64,000 nucleotides of DNA from Chiridota heheva (taxonomy: Eukaryota > Echinodermata > Holothuroidea > Apodida > Chiridotidae). Made by a program: the position numbers and the translations under genes. The DNA is taken from NCBI GenBank assembly GCA_020152595.1, contig JAIGNY010000703.1:1805001-1869000 (forward strand). Reading direction: 5' to 3'. Under the pieces are notes generated by a model that did not search any database, was not told the DNA's origin, and was given only the letters and a program-made list of their open reading frames with translations. Below are positions 7,396-63,125 of this stretch, one piece after another; the first letter of the stretch is position 1, and the number at the start of each line of letters is the position of its first letter.

Positions 7396-8723
7396 CCATC
7401 ATGACTCATGACCACAGAGGTTCCTGAATTGGAACCAAACATTGATGATGATGATGATCGAACCAAACATTGATAAAAATAATAATAGGTCATGATATAG
7501 GTCAAAATGTGACATTAAGAACTAATTTGTATATTCCAATTGTTCCTACTTCCAAAAAAACCACAAGTGGTATCTATCACTGAAAAGAACTTTTCATCAA
7601 CATTTCATAAATTTATTAAAAATGCCACAACTGCTACTACTGTACAAGAGAGTACATAAACTGTTATCAGGGATTTGTTACTAACTTAAGTAATAAATCC
7701 ATGATCTTACATTGTTCAGGAAATATTGAGTTCAAAGTTTGAAGATGATGTGAAAAACTCATTCCTTTAACAATTGCTAATGTATTTAATTAATAATAAG
7801 TTTTAACTTTTTTTTTTTAACTGACTGAAAATATTTCTTTAAATTTAAGACATCAGATCACATTTACTTGAGTAGGCTCGTCTGGTGACTTGTATCCAAT
7901 GGATACAAGCCCCAAATTTCTGAAGAGTATAAATCTAATCAAAAACAATACAACTTACTGAGGAATCATGAATGTGAGGCTGTGATGTCATCTCTAGTCT
8001 GATTTCAGTCACTTCTACACAAATCTGATAGATTTGATATTTCTAATATCTCCACATAAGGAATAAAATATATTTTCTTCACCATTATAATACTTGACTG
8101 TATTTGAACTCTCTCATATACATGCATACAGGTGAACATCTGAACTTTTTCTTTAATGTGTGCTTTCACCTATTCCCATTCTGCATCCTCCTGGGTGCAG
8201 CAAACTTTGAAGCATACAGTATTCCTGTAAATCATTAGGCTACAGGCAATGTTTTGCCCTTCGATAAAAACAGCTGACAAATATCTTTATCTAACGACAA
8301 TTTCACTGATTTAAAAAGCTCAGGACATTCCTGCTTAAGATTCAATACAACAGCCTGTAACCATGAAAGGAATATCAATAGATGATTAAATAGAAATATA
8401 TCATTCTACTGTATTTTTGTTAGCACAGTGATATAATCTTTATAATCTTGTTGAATATTGATTAAGCCTAAAGCGGTCCTGGAGTATTCTAAGAATCTCC
8501 AAACAAAGAAGCACACACATTGCATGTCATTTACAGTTTGATTATACATGAAAAAATACAATACTTCATGGGATCCAATTTACATATGCTTGAATACCAT
8601 TTTCGATATTTTGCATTTGTGACCAACTATAAGAATTTATTCCGTTTCCCCATGCAAGATACAACCTTAATGACCTTCACCAAAGAGTAATATACTGCAG
8701 TACTGTAAATGATTTTTAAACAA
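7396..8723. other. Non-coding; partial MITE arm near 7960-8100
   Basis: No gene is seen. The stretch 7960-8100 (GAGGCTGTGATGTCATC, TCTGATTTCAGTCACTTCTACACAAAT) matches the right arm of the long-arm MITE at 8724-9299, so a decayed relative is present. Confidence 0.45.
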
Positions 8724-14865: not shown

Positions 14866-15553
14866 GGGACATTGTCCCTTCTCCTCCATAGGAAAATCTG
14901 ATATTGTAAATTACTTTAAGAACCTTAAAAATTACCCAATTGTGTTCATTACTATGCTTTTTCAAAAGTAATTAAGAATAGAAGAAAAAGTAACTTGAAA
15001 TGATTTAGTGATGAATGAAAATTTGATTTAATTAAATGTGTATGGACAAGTAGAGGCAACATTGGCTAAATTGATTAAAAATCCACTAAAAACATGAAGA
15101 AAGCAAAAAAATGAAATGCAAATCAGTTAAAAGTTGGCCATTTTACAGCTTTTTGAACATTTTTGCACAAATATTGGCAAATATACAAACTTTTGTGTTA
15201 CTCTTGTGAGGTATGAACTATACTCTTGTGAGGTATGAACGGGATTATAATCTCTATTTTCTTATGTAAATCCATTGTTTTTAACCTCTGTGATTTCTCT
15301 TTGAAAAATGGAAGATAATTCTAATGAAGAGGATTTGATCTTTACCATACCCCCAACCAACCTCAAGCTGGAGAAGGCATTTTGAACATTTTCAAGGTCT
15401 GAAATTAAGGGAAGAAATATCAAAAACAAAAGCATTTTGAGATGTTTTCCTGTTTATCCATCACATTTGTTTCAATATATTAGAATAATTTCAAACTTTG
15501 ATTACTCATAACTTGAAAGCTACACATATGCTATTTCTAAAATTCAGAGACTA
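14866..15553. other. Intronic, nothing recognised
   Basis: AT-rich, no supported frame. One short direct duplication (ACTCTTGTGAGGTATGAAC twice near 15201-15240). Confidence 0.4.
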
Positions 15554-20839: not shown

Positions 20840-21439
20840 GAGTATTTGATTACCAAAAATATGGTTTTAAAAAGATCTTTCTGTCATCTGAGAATGCTGA
20901 AGATTCAGTGGAATTTATCACCAAGTTTATTATTGTTGCATAAATGACAAATTCTTTCATGAAGAGAAATTTCTTGAAATCTACATAACACAGATGGATT
21001 GTATGAATTAGGGCGACGGAATTTGCAGAAATTGATACGCGGATCTCGCATGTTAAGTTTAATCCAATACTTTTCAAAAAAATCAAGTTTTTCTTGAACA
21101 TACGATAGATTCTACATTGTGAGTTTCTATTTCCTTCAGCAAACCAGTCTTGCTCATAAATATCACCTAAACGGAGACTAAGGACCTTACTTAAAATTTC
21201 CTTTGATATATAATTATAACTGTTTTGATAATCTCTCTGGTTGGGAAGCTCCCAAATATATGACATTCCAGCTTTATGAAGGACATTCTTGGCCTTTCTT
21301 ATTCATGGGGATTTATACATATTGTGTTCAAAGTTAATTCTAAGGAATTTATAGACTATATGTGACAACTTACGCTCAGAACTATTAACAATTTCACACC
21401 AGAAATGAATCATTCTGAGCTCTATTGTCTTGATAACTT

Positions 21440-23095
21440 TACTACGACCAAGTTCACCATAGACCATGGAGTTGGGAGTATACTTGTTTAGGCTTTACTG
21501 CAACCAAGTTCACCATAGACCATGCAGTTGGGAGTATACTTGTTTAGGCTTTACTGCAACCAAGTTCACCATAGACCATGCAGTTGGGAGTATACTTGTT
21601 TAGGCTTTACTGCAACCAAGTTCACCATAGACCATGCAGTTGGGAGTATACTTGTTTAGGCTTTACTGCGTCCAAGTTCACCATAGACCATGCAGTTGAG
21701 AGTATACTTGTTTAGGCTTTACTGCAAGTAAGTTCACCATAGACCATGCAGTTGAGAGTATACTTGTTTAAACTTTACTGCAACCAAGTTTACCATAGAC
21801 CATGCAGTTGGGAATATACTTGTTTAGGCTTCACTGCGACCAAGTTCACCATAGACCATGCAATTGGAAGTATACTTGTTTAGGCTTTACTGCGACCAAG
21901 TTCACCATAGACCATGCAGTTGAGAGTATACTTGTTTAAACTTTACTGTGACCAAGTTCACCATAGACCATGCAGTTGGAAATATACTTGTTTAGGCTTT
22001 ACTGCGACCAAGTTCACCATAGACCATGCAGTTGGGAATATACTTGTTTAGGCTTTACTGCGACCAAGTTCACCATAGACCATGCAACTTGTTTAGGCTT
22101 TACTGCGACCAAGCTCACCATAGACCATGCAATTGGAAGTATACTTGTTTAGGCTTTACTGTGACCAAGTTCACCATAGACCATGCCATTGGAAGTATAC
22201 TTGTTTAGGCTTTACTGCGACCAAGCTCACCATAGACCATGCAATTGGAAGTATACTTGTTTAGGCTTTACTGTGACCAAGTTCACCATAGACCATGCAG
22301 TTGGGAGTATACGTGTTTAGGCTTTACTGTGACCAAGTTCACCATAGACCATGCAATTGGAAGTATACTTGTTTAGGCTTTACTGTGACCAAGTTCACCA
22401 TAGACCATGCAGTTGGGAGTATACTTGTTTAGGCTTTACTGTGACCAAGTTTACCATAGACCATGCAGTTGGGAGTATACTTGTTTAGGCTTTACTGGGA
22501 CCAAGTTCACCATAGACCATGCAGTTGGGAATATACTTGTTTAGGCTTTACTGCGACCAAGTTCACCATAGACCATGCAGTTGGGAGTATACTTGTTTAG
22601 ACTTTACTGTGACCAAGTTCACCATAGACCATGCAACTTGTTTAGGCTTTACTGCGACCAAGTTCACCATAGACCATACAGTTGGGAGTATACTTGTTTA
22701 GGCTTTACTGCGACCAAGTTCACCATAGACCATGCAGTTGGGAGTATACTTGTTTAGGCTTTACTGCGACCAAGTTCACCATAGACCATGCAGTTGGGAG
22801 TATACTTGTTTAGGCTTTACTGCGACCAAGTTCACCATAGACCATGCAGTTGGGAGTATACTTGTTTAGGCTTTACTGCGACCAAGTTCACCATAGACCA
22901 TGGAGTTGGGAGTATACTTGTTTAGGCTTTACTGCAACCAAGTTCACCATAGACCATGCAGTTGGGAATATACTTGTTTAGGCTTTACTGCGACCAAGTT
23001 CACCATAGACCATGGAGTTGGGAGTATACTTGTTTAGGCTTTACTGCAACCAAGTTCACCATAGACCATGGAGTTGGGAGCATACTTGTTTAGTC
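21440..23095. repeat. 56-bp satellite, ~29 copies, derived from LINE coding sequence
   Basis: Unit (plus strand): TTCACCATAGACCATGCAG, TTGGGAGTATACTTGTTTAG, GCTTTACTGCGACCAAG. Two units lack the TTGGGAGTATA part (near 22080 and 22637). Read on the minus strand, one frame of the unit is LNKYTPNCMVYGELGRSK, which joins directly to the LINE C-terminal frame on both sides. Since 56 is not a multiple of 3, each added unit breaks the frame. Confidence 0.9.
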
Positions 23096-24018
23096 TCAGC
23101 AGTTACTTACAAACTTTAAGATGAAAAACCTCAATTTGTTTTGCATCATCAAAGCCCTAGACCTCACAGCCATAAATCATAATAGGAAAAACCATTTGGT
23201 CAAATAATTGCAATTGTAAGTCCGCAGGAAGGCACAAATTTCCACATTTTTGCAACTAACTAAAGTGAGCACATCTAGCCCAGTCCGCTTGTTTCTTTAT
23301 GGCTTTTGAAAATTTGTTATTGTAATTAAAAGTTGTACCTAAATAGCTGTTATTGTCAACAACTGCCACTGGCTCATTATTAAATGTGAATGGAAGGTTT
23401 CTTCCTAATTTTTCCCCTTGAAAAAAACAACAATCTTAGTTTTACTGGTATAAACTTTTAAACTCCACATGTTGCAATAACTTCTAACACCATCAAGAGC
23501 TGAATGTAATTCTTGAGCACTTTCTGCAAGGAAAATGGTATCATCTGCATAAAGCAGAGAGAACAACTTCAACGATTTTTCCCACGTAATCGGTACTTAA
23601 TGATTCTTTGATAGAATCAGATACAGTAGGTCACCTAGACCATTATAGAAATGGCTAATAAATTCCTCAAAATCGCTAAGAAAAATTGTAAAAAGTAAGG
23701 GTGGGAGGTTTTTACCCTGTCTCACACCAATGTTACAATTGAAATAATCAGATCTCTCACCGTTTCTCATTACACAAGATTTTGAATCTTTATAAGTTGA
23801 CCCCGGATGTAAGAATTTTGACCACAAAGATAATCTTTCAATAAGATCAAATGTTTTCTTGTTATCTATAAATGCAAAATAAACACGTTTTTTCTTATTC
23901 AGGTAAATCAATGATAGATTGCAATAAAAAATGTGATCTAAAGTTGAATGATTACTTCTGAAACCAGCCTGCTCATCACCTATGAGACCAATGTTATTAA
24001 CGTAATTCATTATCTGAG

Positions 24019-24053
24019 CATGGAGGTACCACTTCTTAAGTGGTACCTCCATG
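24019..24053. mobile_element. 35-bp perfect palindrome inserted in the LINE RT frame
   Basis: CATGGAGGTACCACTT and AAGTGGTACCTCCATG (16-bp arms) enclose a 3-nt loop. The flanks are ATCTGAG on the left and ATCCGAG on the right, a 7-bp direct repeat with one mismatch. On the minus strand it adds a few residues between NTRI and QIMNYVNN without a stop. Confidence 0.7.
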
Positions 24054-24226
24054 ATCCGAGTATTCAAGATAGAGGTGAATAACTTGCGAAGGCCATGAAG
24101 ACGTTCTTCTATATATGGGAATTGGTCAAAATTGCCTAAAGCATCCAGACTGCCAATCTTACATTGCACCGCACAAGACAGCTTGCCAGACCAGTGTGCA
24201 ACCCAATCCCCTATTCATCTTCTTTA

Positions 24227-24912
24227 CTCACATCATGGAGGTACCACTTTAGAGTGTTACCTTCTCCCCTACTCATCTTCCTCACTCACATCATGGAGGT
24301 ACCACTTTAGAGTGTTACCTCCTCCCCTACTCATCTTCCTCACTCATATCATGGAGGTACCACTTTAGAGTGTTACCTCCTTCCCTACTCATCTTCCTCA
24401 CTCACATGATGGAGGTACCACTTTAGAGTGTTACCTCCTCCCCTACTCATTCTCCTCACTCACATCATGGAGGTACCACTTTAGAGTGTTACCTCCTCCC
24501 CTACTCATTCTCCTCACTCACATTATGGAGGTACCCCTTTAGAGTGTTACCTTCTCCCATACTCATCTTCCTCACTCACATCATGGAGGTACCACTTTAG
24601 AGTGTTACCTCCTCCCCTACTCATCTTCCTCACTCACATCATGGAGGTACCACTTTAGAGTGTTACCTCCTCCCCTACTCATTCTCCTCACTCACATCAT
24701 GGAGGTACCACTTTAGAGTGTTACCTCCTCCCCTACTCATTCTCCTCACTCACATCATGGAGGTACCACTTTAGAGTGTTACCCCCTCCCCTACTCATCT
24801 TCCTCACTCACATCATGGAGGTACCACTTTAGAGTGTTACCTCCTCCCCTACTCATCTTCCTCACTCACATCATGGAGGTACCACTTTAGAGTGTTACCT
24901 CCATGCTCACGT
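24227..24912. repeat. 58-bp tandem array with a palindromic core, ~12 copies
   Basis: Unit: CATGGAGGTACCACTTTAG, AGTGTTACCTCC, TCCCCTACTCATCTTCCTCACTCACAT. The first part is an imperfect version of the palindrome at 24019. The final unit keeps the complete palindrome ending CCTCCATG. Flanks are CTCACAT (left) and CTCACGT (right). The array sits between two parts of the LINE RT region. Confidence 0.9.
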
Positions 24913-37032: not shown

Positions 37033-38097
37033 CAGGGGCGTGTCTAGCTGTCTAGCTTTTCGTTTTTGAGGGGCTTAGGCCTACCAAAAAGATATTTAGG
37101 GCGGGTTTTAGATCCGGAGAGGACATAGGCGTAGGAAGTTAGGGACCCCTTCCCCCCCCTCCCTTCCCCTCCGGAAAGGATTTCTATTTCCCAGTTGCAT
37201 TCATGCTTTATTTTGAAGACAAATAGTGAAATTATTAACATAAAATTGAAAGAAAATGCGTACGATTGTTGGAAAATTCGTTCAATTTAGGCAACTTTCC
37301 TGAAATTTCTTGATATTGACAGTTATTTCCCGAAAGTAAAAACTTTTCCTGGAAATTGAAGAAAATTCTCCAGAAATTAAAGATCCACGAAATTGATGGA
37401 AATTTCCCAAAAAATGAAGGAAATTTCCCGAAAAATGAAGGAGATTTCCCGAAAATTGCCAAAAAAATTCTTCAAATTCATGAAAATTTCGCGGAAGTTG
37501 AATTTTTTTTCCTGAAACCAGTAAAGACAATTTTTTGAAAATGAAGGCTACAAATTCATGGAAATAAAGAAAACTTCCTAAAAGTTCAAGGAGAATTCAC
37601 GAAAATTTTCAAATTCTTTTTGATTAGTGTGGGCGAAAAGGTAATTTAAAAGGCTTATTTTAAAATTGTATTGCTTTGAAGATTATTGAAGGTGTGGGTC
37701 ATACGTGCATGGCCCTGATATTATAAAAACTTCACCTCACTATCTAAAGGTTTTGGTCTTTGTTGTAGATTTTAATCCAAACTTGAACGTTTTTAATCCA
37801 AAATTGAAGAATTTTGATAAGCCTGAAGATTTCTTATCCAAAATTGAAGATTTTGAGGCCAAAATTAAAAATGTTGTTCAAAATGGAGGATTTTTGGTGC
37901 AAACTGTAAAAGCTTTGGTCCAAAATTAACGATTACTCAGTCGATACGGTTACAAAAAAGGCCAACTTCCTGTTTTCACACATGGTTCATTTGATATAGT
38001 TGAGTTAATTATTGATATGTCTTAACTATGGTATTGTTTATGGGGTAATTCCCAATATCCCCTCCCCTCCCCCTCTCCCTTCCTATCCACGCCACTG
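37033..38097. mobile_element. Possible CAG-TGGCG element, decayed, with low-complexity interior
   Basis: The left end CAGGGGCGTGTCTAG (37033) and the right end CTATCCACGCCACTG (to 38097) are inverted complements at 12 of 15 positions. The interior starts and ends with C/G-rich tracts and is otherwise made of GAAATTTCCCGAAAATTGAAGG-type repeats. Two ORFs here are repeat translations. No clear target duplication. Confidence 0.4.
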
Positions 38098-38640: not shown

Positions 38641-39743
38641 CAGTGGAGTACCCCCCCCCCCCCATCCTTGCGTAAAATCAAGCGAGCCTGCTTTAAGTGT
38701 CCAAGAGTTCCCACCAGGTGTGTCGGAAGGAGCTCGGGGAAAAGGGCTGAAAATTAAGTAAGGGCACTTTTTTTGACAGTAATTGAGGGGTACTTTTCAT
38801 TTTCAAAAATGGGTGTTTTTGTCAGTTTTCAAAAAAACAGTGGGGGACCTCTGAAAACTGCCCCCAACTTTGTTCCAAATGTATACTCGTATGGTGATGT
38901 TTTGTATCTTAGCGTGAATTTGGCCCTGACCTCCTCCACACACAATTTTGACTTTTCCTCCACTTTCGGTGTAGGCAAATCCCGCCTATGCATTTGAAAT
39001 TATGAAACCAGAAATTTCCCATCGGGCGAATAGGTAAAAAACCTACTTTTGAAAAACTTTTGGACCACCACGGTCCTCGGTGTCGGGCCCCTGGTAAATG
39101 ACATGCTTTAATTTTGTCAAATAAATAATAAATGTATGTTACATCTTCTAGGTATAATCTGTTAGTGACTGGATTTCTATTTGTTTTCAAGTTCAGCAGT
39201 TCAAGCAATTCAAGCCTATTCTACCTATAATTTCATAAAACTTTCCCGGTCCGCCCTCAACTTTCAAATGACACCTCCTGCCCCAGTCCGCCCCCAAATT
39301 TCAAAAGGACATTATCTACCCTTTCGCCTCTTACTTTGAGGCAAGGGGGAAGTGGCCCCCTTGCCCGCGGTTCCGACATCGCTGGTTCCCACAAACATCC
39401 AATTATTGATCCAATTGATCTTAGTGTCTTAAAGTAGATGAATTGAAGGGATCTTAATTCATTATCATGACCACAGTAGACCCCCACTTGACCGATGCCG
39501 TGGAGATGGAGGGGGGAGGGGGGTGGTAGCCTCTCATAAATAGTTATGTTAATTTGAATGTTTTTTTTATTATTCCCAAACGCCTGAACGCCAAAGGGTT
39601 GAAGATCTTCAATGGAGGGGGAGCATATATAGATATTTCTGACTGTCTAACATCTGAAATCCCTCAAGATATTTTAGCCAGCAAATTGTTCAATTTGGTC
39701 ACCTGTCATGTATTTATGAGCTGTAAGAATTAATACATGTAAC
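38641..39743. other. Intergenic; nothing recognised
   Basis: C tract at 38650-38663; G-rich patch at 39508-39524. No gene. Confidence 0.4.
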
Positions 39744-39773
39744 CATGGAGGTACCACTTTAGACACCTCCATG
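39744..39773. mobile_element. 30-bp palindromic insertion with 7-bp target duplication
   Basis: CATGGAGGTACCACTTTAG followed by ACACCTCCATG. It is flanked by ATGTAAC at 39737-39743 and again at 39774-39780, a perfect direct repeat. Same family as 24019-24053 and the core of 24227-24912. Confidence 0.7.
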
Positions 39774-39780
39774 ATGTAAC

Positions 39781-41909: not shown

Positions 41910-42348
41910 CCTGAGGCCCACGACCATTTTACAGGCTTGACTTGGCCCCAATATCAATCACGCTGGAATCGAATGTCTTGCATTTTCAACGAGGGATAGT
42001 GCAGTATTCATTGTGAACAAATGTATGAACGTCATGTGTTGCCAAAGTGGGTCGAAGATGAAGCTGATTGAAAAGTAATTGATGAAGGCCGTCAGCAACT
42101 TTAGAATTGATTTTGCTTCACAAGTTTCAAAATTTCGATTCTTCCCCTCTCCCAGAATCTTCCCTCTCCAGCCATAATCCCCTTCCCCAAAATCTCTCTC
42201 CCCCAGTGGTGGCACTATAATTTGGGGGACAAATGGAGGAAGCCTATCTATGCCCCCATACTTGCACGCAGCTGCAAATATTTGCCTGAAGTTTAATTTT
42301 TCATTCATTGTTTAATTCAAGGTCTATGTATTTGTCTTCTATTGATAG
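41910..42348. other. Intron 1, last part, to acceptor at 42348
   Basis: Acceptor ATTGATAG|GGCGGCG. Short ORFs on the other strand are chance. Confidence 0.6.
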
Positions 42349-42972
42349 GGCGGCGTTAATGACTGGTCGTTTTCAGAGTAGATCTGGCGTATGGCCGGGT
42401 TTATTTGAGCCCAATTCCATCGGCGGTTTGCCACACAACGAAACGACCATCGCTGACCTACTTAAACCAGCCGGATACCAAACGGCTATCGTGGGCAAAT
42501 GGCACCTGGGTGTGGGAAAGGATAACATGTTCCTACCGACAACTCAGGGATTTGATGAATATTATGGAGTTCCGTATTCTCACGACATGTGCCCATGTAA
42601 TGTATGTTTCTACCCGAATGACAAATGTCTGAACGTATGCGACCCAGCGTACACGTCATGTCCACTTTTTGATGGCACAAAAATAATCGAACAGCCTGTT
42701 AATCTAACTACACTCCACGAGAGATATTTAAATAGGTCGTTGAGTTTCATTTCAGAAAATGCTGCCAACGGTACACCGTTCTTTTTATATTACGCTTTTC
42801 AACACACGCACCATCCTCAGTATGCCGGGAAAGCCTTTCGTAATTCGACGATCCGCCGTGCCTTTGGAGATTCTTTGGCGGAATTAGATGACGCAGTTGG
42901 GCAAGTGATCGCTCAACTGGGAAAAAGTGGCGTCGCTAACAATACCTTCGTCTTTTTCACGTCTGATAATGG
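42349..42972 (+). CDS. Arylsulfatase A-like gene 1, exon 2
   Basis: The first base completes Arg78, so the signature reads C-S-P-S-R-A-A-L-M-T-G-R across the intron. Further active-site residues are visible: GKWHLGVG with Lys128 and His130, QHTHHPQ with His230/His232, and TSDNG with Asp284 and Asn285, the other metal ligands. A disulfide-rich segment CPCNVCFYPNDKCLNVC lies at 159-175, where arylsulfatase A also has cysteines. Several N-x-S/T sites are present (for example HNETT, VNLTT, LNRSL). The donor GG|GTGAGT splits the Gly codon. The exon is 624 nt, the same length as in gene 2. Confidence 0.9.
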
Positions 42973-43399
42973 GTGAGTAAGTCTTCGAACTTCAGGAATT
43001 TTGAATTACTACCGAGCAGTGGCGGCGCCAGGATTTTATTGCCGGCCCCAAGGTCTGCCGAATATCAAAAGATTATTTTGTCCAACATGGTTAATCTTTA
43101 CCTTTTAATAGGGGTGGGGTGGGGGTTAGCACTGAGCACTGAAAAACGTTTGTAATCATGATCTTAATTAGTAGTTTAAAAACCGTGTATTGCACACATC
43201 AGAGTGTTTTGGGGCATCTAAAGTTCGAAAATGTGAAGTTTCCCGGGGGCTTGACCTCCATCGGTACTTTGACCCCGGACCCCATGCCGTAAAGACTGCC
43301 AAATAGATGCCAACTATCAAACCTTGACGACGCCACTGGTTGTATTCTGTTGATGATGCATGTTTTATTGAGATGTCTGCATGCTTTTTATAATTGCAG
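42973..43399. mobile_element. Intron 2 of gene 1, mostly a CAGTGGCG-ended element (43017-43338)
   Basis: CAGTGGCGGCGCCAGGA at 43017 and CCTTGACGACGCCACTG to 43338 are inverted complements with a few mismatches. The flanks do not match, so no target duplication is claimed. The acceptor is TAATTGCAG|ACCCTC. Confidence 0.5.
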
Positions 43400-62060: not shown

Positions 62061-62501
62061 TTCATTTTCTACTACTTTGCAATTTTTCCAAATTGTGATG
62101 TACTGTACCTTTTCCCAATTTTTCAATCCATGATATTTTCTTCCGATTTAAAATTTGAAAAGCAAAAATGGAAAGTTTTTGTAGTTTTTATGTCTGAAAT
62201 TGCAAACAGTGTAAACTTGAAATTTCTTACATTTTTTGAATTTGTATCACTCTATGTGAAACTTTCTTCAGGATAGTAATGCACATATATGCCTCAAGAT
62301 CTTTAGGTAAAATCCTAGCATAGCAAAACAGGTTTGGCAAAATGTGTTTTTTGTAATACAACTTTATTCCGTTATCTAAATAACTGAAACTTTGAGGAAT
62401 AACAATCTAAGAAACGCATAGTAAACTTACTTCATTAAACATATGGCAATAAACCGCTATACAACCGCTATACTAAGATTTTTCATATCTTTTTTACTTA
62501 C
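62061..62501. other. Intron 2 of gene 2, next to exon 2
   Basis: AT-rich, nothing recognised. Confidence 0.5.
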
Positions 62502-63125
62502 CCATTGTCTGAAGTGAAAAACACAAACGTGTTTTCCATGACACCACTCTCTTGAAGCTGGCCCATCACATCGCCAACTCCACCATCAAGCTCTGCTAGA
62601 GCATCCCCAAAAGCTCCTCGAATAGTGGAATTGCGGAATTCCTTCCCAGCATATTTTGGATGATGGGTGTGATGGAATGCATAATACAAGAAAAATGGCG
62701 TCCCTGAATCTGCGTTCTCTTTAATCACTTGCTTAGCACGACTGACGTATCGTTCATGCAAAATGGTTAAATTTACGGGTTGCTCAACGATCTTCGTCCC
62801 ATCGAAGAGGGGGCATGAGGTATATTTTTCATCGCAATGATTCAAACAGGTGTCATTGGGATAGAAACATATCTCACATGGACACATGTCGTGGGAATAT
62901 GGCACCCCATAATACTCGTCAAAGCCTTGCGTTGTTGGTAGATAGATGTTGCCCTTGCCGACACCCAGATGCCATTTGCCGACGATGGCTGTATGGTACC
63001 CAGCGGGCTTCAATATCTCAGCTATGGTGGTTTCATTGTGAGGAAGTCCGCCTGTGGAATCTGGTACAAATACCCCAGGATACACCCCTGACCTTGTTTG
63101 GTAGCGTCCTGTCAGCAAACCAGCC
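62502..63125 (-). CDS. Arylsulfatase A-like gene 2, exon 2
   Basis: The acceptor is TTTTTCACAG|GGCTGG (first base 63125 completes the signature Arg) and the donor is AATGG|GTAAGT (last base 62502). It is 624 nt, identical in length and phase to exon 2 of gene 1. It encodes AGLLTGRYQTRSGVYPG, then GKWHLGVG, CPCEICFYPNDTCLNHC, FHHTHHPKYAG and FTSDNG, so all active-site residues in this part are present and the frame is intact. Exon 1 with the formylglycine Cys must lie beyond 64000, because nothing like [10 protein letters not shown] occurs in 63126-64000. Downstream exons 3 and 4 show apparent frameshifts. Confidence 0.85.

Follow-up and report, generated by a model that had tools for sequence, protein, structure and literature searches.

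A genome-wide family of short hairpins in Chiridota heheva, very probably excision footprints of a P-type transposon

P elements and P-type footprints are already known, and at Drosophila P donor sites remnants of both transposon ends are left between two copies of the target. The Drosophila P transposase is described as cutting one strand at the end of the element and the other (the 5' strand) 17 nt inside the 31-bp repeat (excerpts of PMC7776569). Galileo, a member of the P superfamily in Drosophila, duplicates 7 bp of target and prefers a palindromic site, GTANTAC (excerpts of PMC4168063), while zebrafish Pdre2/THAP9 is a P-like system outside flies with an end that starts CAT and a transposase that excises in cells (excerpts of PMC10983969). 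Natural sites of transposon excision with target copies, trimming and filler have been described in rice (excerpts of PMC4423477), and the Tetris foldback transposon/satellite of D. virilis provides a case of transposon-derived sequence expanded into tandem repeats (abstract of PMC4079207).

Here we describe a 30-bp hairpin in a 64,000-nucleotide stretch of the genome of the holothurian Chiridota heheva (the window) and the family to which it belongs. We conclude that this hairpin is very probably a P-superfamily excision footprint, left by a parent with 20-bp terminal inverted repeats that makes 7-bp target duplications.

The focal hairpin and its relatives in the genome

Read directly from the sequence, positions 39737-39780 consist of ATGTAAC, a 30-bp palindrome and ATGTAAC again, exactly the palindrome with a perfect 7-bp target duplication that the initial annotation had reported. 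The palindrome (CATGGAGGTACCACTTTAGACACCTCCATG, 39744-39773) has perfect arms of 9 bp, CATGGAGGT and ACCTCCATG. It can be parsed on the forward strand into the left target copy (39737..39743), 20 nt of one transposon end (CATGGAGGTACCACTTTAGA, 39744..39763) and a single nucleotide of junction filler (39764..39764), followed by 9 nt of the other end on the reverse strand (ACCTCCATG, 39765..39773) and the right target copy, again forward (39774..39780). Taken by itself, the site also permits a 9-bp reading of the duplication (ATGTAACCA), because the CA after the second copy matches the palindrome's opening bases. The family sets the length at 7 bp, since 356,819 bases scanned contained 44 exact cases at 7 bp and none at 5, 6, 8 or 9 bp.

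The genome searched comprised 1,100,099,931 bases in 3744 contigs, the window lying on contig C699. A strict pattern (15 nt of one end, a gap of 0-30 and 8 nt of the other end) matched this 1.1-Gb genome 219 times in forward and 202 times in reverse orientation, palindromic copies scoring on both strands, and the reversed-pattern control gave 0 and 0. The first 100 matches listed correspond to 75 places: 3 in the window itself, 67 whose sequence was retrieved (66 loci, L047-L112) and 5 left aside; 70 copies were scored after one identical pair had been dropped, with one composite counted. The 7 bp on either side of these 70 hairpins agreed at 7/7 positions in 42 copies, at 6/7 in 14 and at 5/7 or fewer in 14, compared with 1.1% (7/7) and 2.0% (6/7) when flanks were randomly re-paired. 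The sampled hairpins measured 26-55 bp, most commonly 34 bp (19/70), and 27 of the 42 copies with a 7/7 duplication conform to a target preference NTNNNAN. The initial annotation had proposed a genome-wide search with tabulated flanks, and had taken copies without duplications, or confined to one duplicated block, as evidence against its reading. The search yielded hundreds of matches with the flanking agreement just given, at unlinked loci with different flanks, which rules out a single duplicated block.

When the window was scanned blind for palindromes of size 18-120 with arms of 8 and a 7-10-bp duplication (at most one mismatch), the family turned up at three places, 39744, 24019 and 24872. 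Further matches fell in simple repeats or tandem arrays (7284 on, 51252, 57658 on), and two more, each with one mismatch, lay at 7427-7541 and 37281-37360. These last two do not exceed the yield of shuffling: ten windows shuffled by a Markov model produced 0-2 matches each, none with a perfect duplication. These shuffles, together with a genomic family whose reversed control is 0, rule out a chance palindrome. The focal flank is single copy and over its length has no other match in the genome; 11 of the 12 matches obtained with it cover little beyond the hairpin, and the same search returned no paralogous empty site for the focal scar. Of 46 matching loci elsewhere, 2 in viral contigs and 44 in prokaryote genomes, none had the hairpin and one had CCTCC nearby; they were taken as chance 16-mers.

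Some copies are compound. A scar is nested in a scar at L106:580-634, another scar-in-scar at L124:1460-1520 involves the end of another family, and L064:601-668 holds a doubled scar with CATG in common and a single outer duplication, GTTATAC. Hairpins with other ends but exact 7-bp duplications occur at L148:1915, L072:1174 and L124:1474 (CAGGGAAGT..., CAGGGAGTTG... and CAAGGAGC..., respectively) and were probably left as scars by further P-type families. The L148 hairpin is common to L150, L153 and L154, and the L156 match ends before the hairpin.

Parent element and retained ends

P-transposase profiles identified 2 places in the genome for PF12017, 12 for PF21788 and 46 for PF21787, with 0 in the controls (14 known genomes). 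Crossing these coordinates with the 84 copies of the end plus A left two candidate parents, on contigs C1505 and C3267. In C1505 the full 20-mer lies at 15276 (L161:1277) and is followed by CTTTAACCAAAAC; the second end lies at the contig terminus, 24664, where 17 of its 20 nt are present and the contig stops inside the end. P-transposase domains lie between the two ends: PF21787 (7.4e-27), PF21789 (9e-9, at L161:1495-1836) and PF12017 (2e-4, at 22.1 bits just below the cut-off of 23). Fly P transposases have a THAP domain at the N-terminal position; in the C1505 transposase the Pfam scan gave no THAP match, and an N-terminal zf-AD match reached 23.4 bits, below its cut-off of 28. This weak match accompanies PF21787 and PF12017 in an open frame of 662 residues encoded by the minus strand (L161:4674-6665), whose only PDB match is Drosophila P transposase (6p5a, E 1.2e-5). 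With transposase domains between its ends and inverted terminal repeats at both, the C1505 copy is a P-superfamily element. It is also the longer element with the same ends and a transposase that the initial annotation had suggested looking for, and its ends, exactly those of the scars, bear out the proposed P-type parentage. The 7-bp target duplication is known from the scars, the contig stopping inside the 5' end of the C1505 element.

As present, the C1505 copy is ~9.4 kb long, with later insertions. In C3267 the 20-mer is found at 1284261, followed by AAGAGTCCCAATAAAG, and the DNA beyond is colinear with C1505; the 1,001 bases read did not contain the 3' end of this copy. The two interiors diverge from nt 21 on (AAGAGTCC, CTTTAACC), and from this comparison of the C1505 and C3267 ends the terminal inverted repeat is 20 bp long. 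The CATGGAGGTACCACTTTAGA at 39744..39763 of the focal scar is identical to the 3' end of C1505 and the 5' end of C3267. A pattern joining the 5' end to its interior had five genome matches at up to 3 mismatches, two of them exact (control 1). One exact match is the scar at L137 and another match a hairpin on C2357; C1505's own 5' end, cut by the contig end, falls outside this set. The corresponding 3' pattern had one exact match and two with 3 mismatches (control 0). Recognisable parental ends therefore amount to a handful, against some hundreds of scars.

Other P-type loci were considered as parents and rejected: the end was absent from the stretches read of P family alpha (L148, L150, L153, L154, L156) and of P family beta (L151, L152, L155), and from the first P loci, L113 and L114. 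Within the C1505 element, a 7-bp duplication, CTATAGG, flanks a ~1.1-kb insertion that C3267 lacks. There, at L161:7165-8264, a scar is interrupted by ~1.06 kb bounded by TAGAGCTGTGA/TCACAGCTCTA, in what looks like another transposon lodged in a scar that itself lies in the P element.

Exact matches to the complete 20-nt end number 155+118 in the genome (control 0 and 1). We took the first 30 of these 273 in contig order, blind to what lay downstream, a sample that partly overlaps the hairpin sample. A whole element was present at 0/30. A second target copy within 90 nt agreed at 7/7 positions at 19 of the 30 loci, at 6/7 at 8 (that of L131 probably a chance match within the remnant) and at 5/7 at 3, and the identical search placed 300 bp away as a control gave 7/7 at 0/30 and 6/7 at 3/30. 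In the sampled scars both target copies are retained and enclose what is left of the two inverted ends, as in a footprint. The element sequence retained per side has a limit of ~20 nt, the same as the length of the repeat, although one common junction (TTTAGAAAGTGG) is also readable as 23 nt retained. Because the terminal repeat is itself 20 bp, this limit could stem from the length of the repeat instead of the cut; retention of 20 nt is frequent, so the stagger may be ~20 nt here, or repeat length may set the limit.

These end points bear on the idea that resident copies lost their interior in place, without excision, through palindrome-driven slippage or interrupted gap repair. We regard this as very improbable. 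L137 is the one locus among the 30 that enters the element interior: ~25 nt of C1505-type 5' interior precede a copy of the neighbouring end, the kind of product expected from templated repair. It does favour such an origin, as does the 73-bp form with 5'-type interior on C2357. However, end points fall inside the last 20 nt on either side at 29 of the 30 loci, and there is no consensus past nt 20 among them. Random deletion should moreover give a spread of partly deleted elements, whereas the class of 54-84-bp hairpins is small (38 matches, 28+10, vs 421 at 23-53 bp). In that class 20 of the 38 matches fall in three dense runs, on C1066, C1287 and C2292, and the remaining 18 reduce to 13 places, among which are several nested or doubled scars (C91, C139, C140, C706, C776). 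One-sided scars would, in addition, require deletion to reach the very edge of the element. Five of the 30 loci (L115, L125, L128, L132 and L138) are of this kind, with 0-2 nt of the second end left and both target copies retained, perfect or near-perfect.

The same one-sided copies, as they stand, could not transpose, which weighs against a second idea, namely that the hairpin of 26-48 bp is an ultra-short MITE, itself mobile and moved in trans by a P-type transposase. A MITE should have both ends present and be mobilised whole. The inverted ends, the 7-bp duplications and the large number of unlinked copies would all suit it, and one form, 17+17 (CATGGAGGTACCACTTTAAAGTGGTACCTCCATG), the commonest, recurs at 6 of 53 sampled scars. 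Yet the 53 scars with a duplication of at least 6/7 comprise 36 distinct sequences, whose differences cluster at the junction, and recurrent forms are expected from repair at identical microhomologies. A mobile unit of this size thus appears scarcely credible. The initial annotation had offered two origins for the palindrome: a DNA transposon that lost its interior and whose two ends became fused, which stands, together with the P-type parent, on the same-end element in the genome and the 7-bp duplications at unlinked loci; and a self-mobilising hairpin substrate, which these junctions and one-sided copies do not support.

Junctions are also informative about repair. Among 31 filler-free scars, 24 have microhomology of at least 1 nt, compared with 43% under a simple null (binomial 1e-4), and 11 have at least 2 nt, compared with 13% (p 0.001); the null places end points uniformly from 8 to 20, and 22 of the 53 scars, with filler or mutations, were excluded. 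This microhomology fits microhomology-aided end joining as the presumed pathway.

A proposed course from insertion to scar and minisatellite

We suggest the following course of events at the focal site. An element would have inserted at ATGTAAC, duplicating the target, and the transposase would then have excised it in the style of the P element, with one strand cut at the element end and the other ~17-20 nt within the terminal repeat, each chromosome break retaining up to ~20 nt of element. The host would fill, trim and join the breaks, frequently at 1-2 nt of microhomology, which here would have left 20 nt from one end and 9 nt from the other, separated by 1 filler nt. A scar containing parts of both ends resembles a small hairpin because the ends are inverted repeats, and remnants of both are expected because P transposase cuts 17 nt within the inverted repeat. 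Excision by a transposase cutting inside the inverted repeat is a more specific cause than the initial annotation named, and one in which we place high confidence; the exact stagger, the repair pathway and the order of insertion and excision at this particular site are the likeliest reconstruction from the sequences compared. As every excision by a cut-and-paste element leaves a scar behind, each surviving element should be matched by many scars, provided that repair from the sister template is rare. The single assembly showed no scar site with an allele that holds the whole element.

The scarcity of intact elements beside scars would equally be accounted for by abortive integration, in which single-stranded 3' extensions are joined to the target and the element body is lost before repair, leaving fill-in copies of the ends at a site that never held the full insertion. 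It predicts an identical scar. We nevertheless judge it improbable, as it is less economical than insertion followed by excision, and we know of no P-element example. The duplicated 1.1-kb insertion in C1505 is repeat-like sequence inside a scar and does not decide on abortive integration. Somewhat less improbable, yet still unlikely, is the broader proposal that P-type insertions here nearly always end up as scars, through abortive integration or very efficient later removal, and that the scars seed minisatellites. If true, transposition would usually yield a short terminal remnant instead of the element.

Our preferred reading, insertion followed by P-type excision, can be followed at two further scars on the forward strand of the window. 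The second (35 bp, 24019..24053) lies within a copy of a non-LTR retrotransposon between ATCTGAG (24012..24018) and ATCCGAG (24054..24060), and is absent from the paralogs L165 and L166. Relative to L166 the insertion is 42 bp, a multiple of three, and a reverse-transcriptase ORF on the minus strand (23597..24169; Pfam RVT_1, E 7e-10) reads through it. The third scar (34 bp, 24872..24905) is whole only in the last unit of a 58-bp minisatellite of 12 units (24207..24902, forward), each unit comprising 27 bp of host flank and 31 bp of the scar. Its target copies are CTCACAT (24865..24871, in the last array unit) and CTCACGT (24906..24912). At the same site L175 is empty, with a single target copy (CTCACATTAACGTTGACC), and L165 has a shorter scar with the array absent. 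Since the states empty (L175), scar (L165) and scar plus array (window) all exist, the order is insertion, then scar, then array. Empty sites are thus observed for two of the window's scars. A search of the window outside the array region at up to 5 mismatches found no further copies of the 20-mer.

Other repeats were noted alongside. Dense runs of ends at C1066:1961453-1962436, C1287:16535-16799 and C2292:228001-228985, with steps of ~49 bp, ~41 bp and multiples of 31 bp, respectively, are possibly scar-seeded minisatellites too. At 21437-23093 the window holds a 56-bp minisatellite of 30 units, a few with CATGGAGTT; the hairpin is absent there. The amphioxus 'mirage' minisatellites were rejected as a parallel, being described in excerpts of PMC3087553 as exon-intron boundary duplications, with inverted ends unmentioned in those excerpts. 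The window also contains two related sulfatase-like frames on opposite strands, 42308-42976 (Pfam Sulfatase, E 1.4e-33) and 62498-63118, the latter called by likeness only.

Probable scars of a nearly vanished element and described systems

Nothing obvious on such scar families was found in the open-licence literature searched, the 40 papers listed, out of 97 that contain one of five short strings of the sequence, included, judging by title, nothing on repeats, and we found no precedent in this literature for a natural set this large that combines a 7-bp target and 20-bp repeat with near-vanished parents. What repeat finders would label tiny MITEs or orphan hairpins can be the trail of a nearly vanished cut-and-paste element. 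The scars also amount to hundreds of marked double-strand-break repairs with known starting ends, from which germ-line end-joining outcomes can be read and dated. At one site of the window, the empty, scar and scar-plus-array states illustrate one route by which a minisatellite is born.

Compared with the Drosophila P element, the scar family shares a P-superfamily transposase and differs in its measures, with a 7-bp duplication, a 20-bp repeat and up to ~20 nt retained as against 8 bp, 31 bp and 17 nt in Drosophila P. The scars are a natural genome-wide set, whereas the Drosophila P donor-site products come from the laboratory. Galileo resembles the family in its 7-bp duplication and in the likeness of GTANTAC to NTNNNAN, the two being likened by these features only, as excerpted; its long, variable terminal repeats are unlike the 20 bp found here. 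Zebrafish Pdre2, as its excerpts describe it, differs in its 13-bp repeat and 8-bp duplication, and its excision in cells often brings larger flanking deletions, whereas in the scar family both target copies are mostly kept. In rice, by the excerpted account, 94 excisions included 8 perfect ones and insertions outnumbered excisions; in C. heheva scars far outnumber recognisable elements and terminal repeats remain. Finally, in a difference from Tetris, the seed of the window minisatellite is an excision scar together with its host flank.
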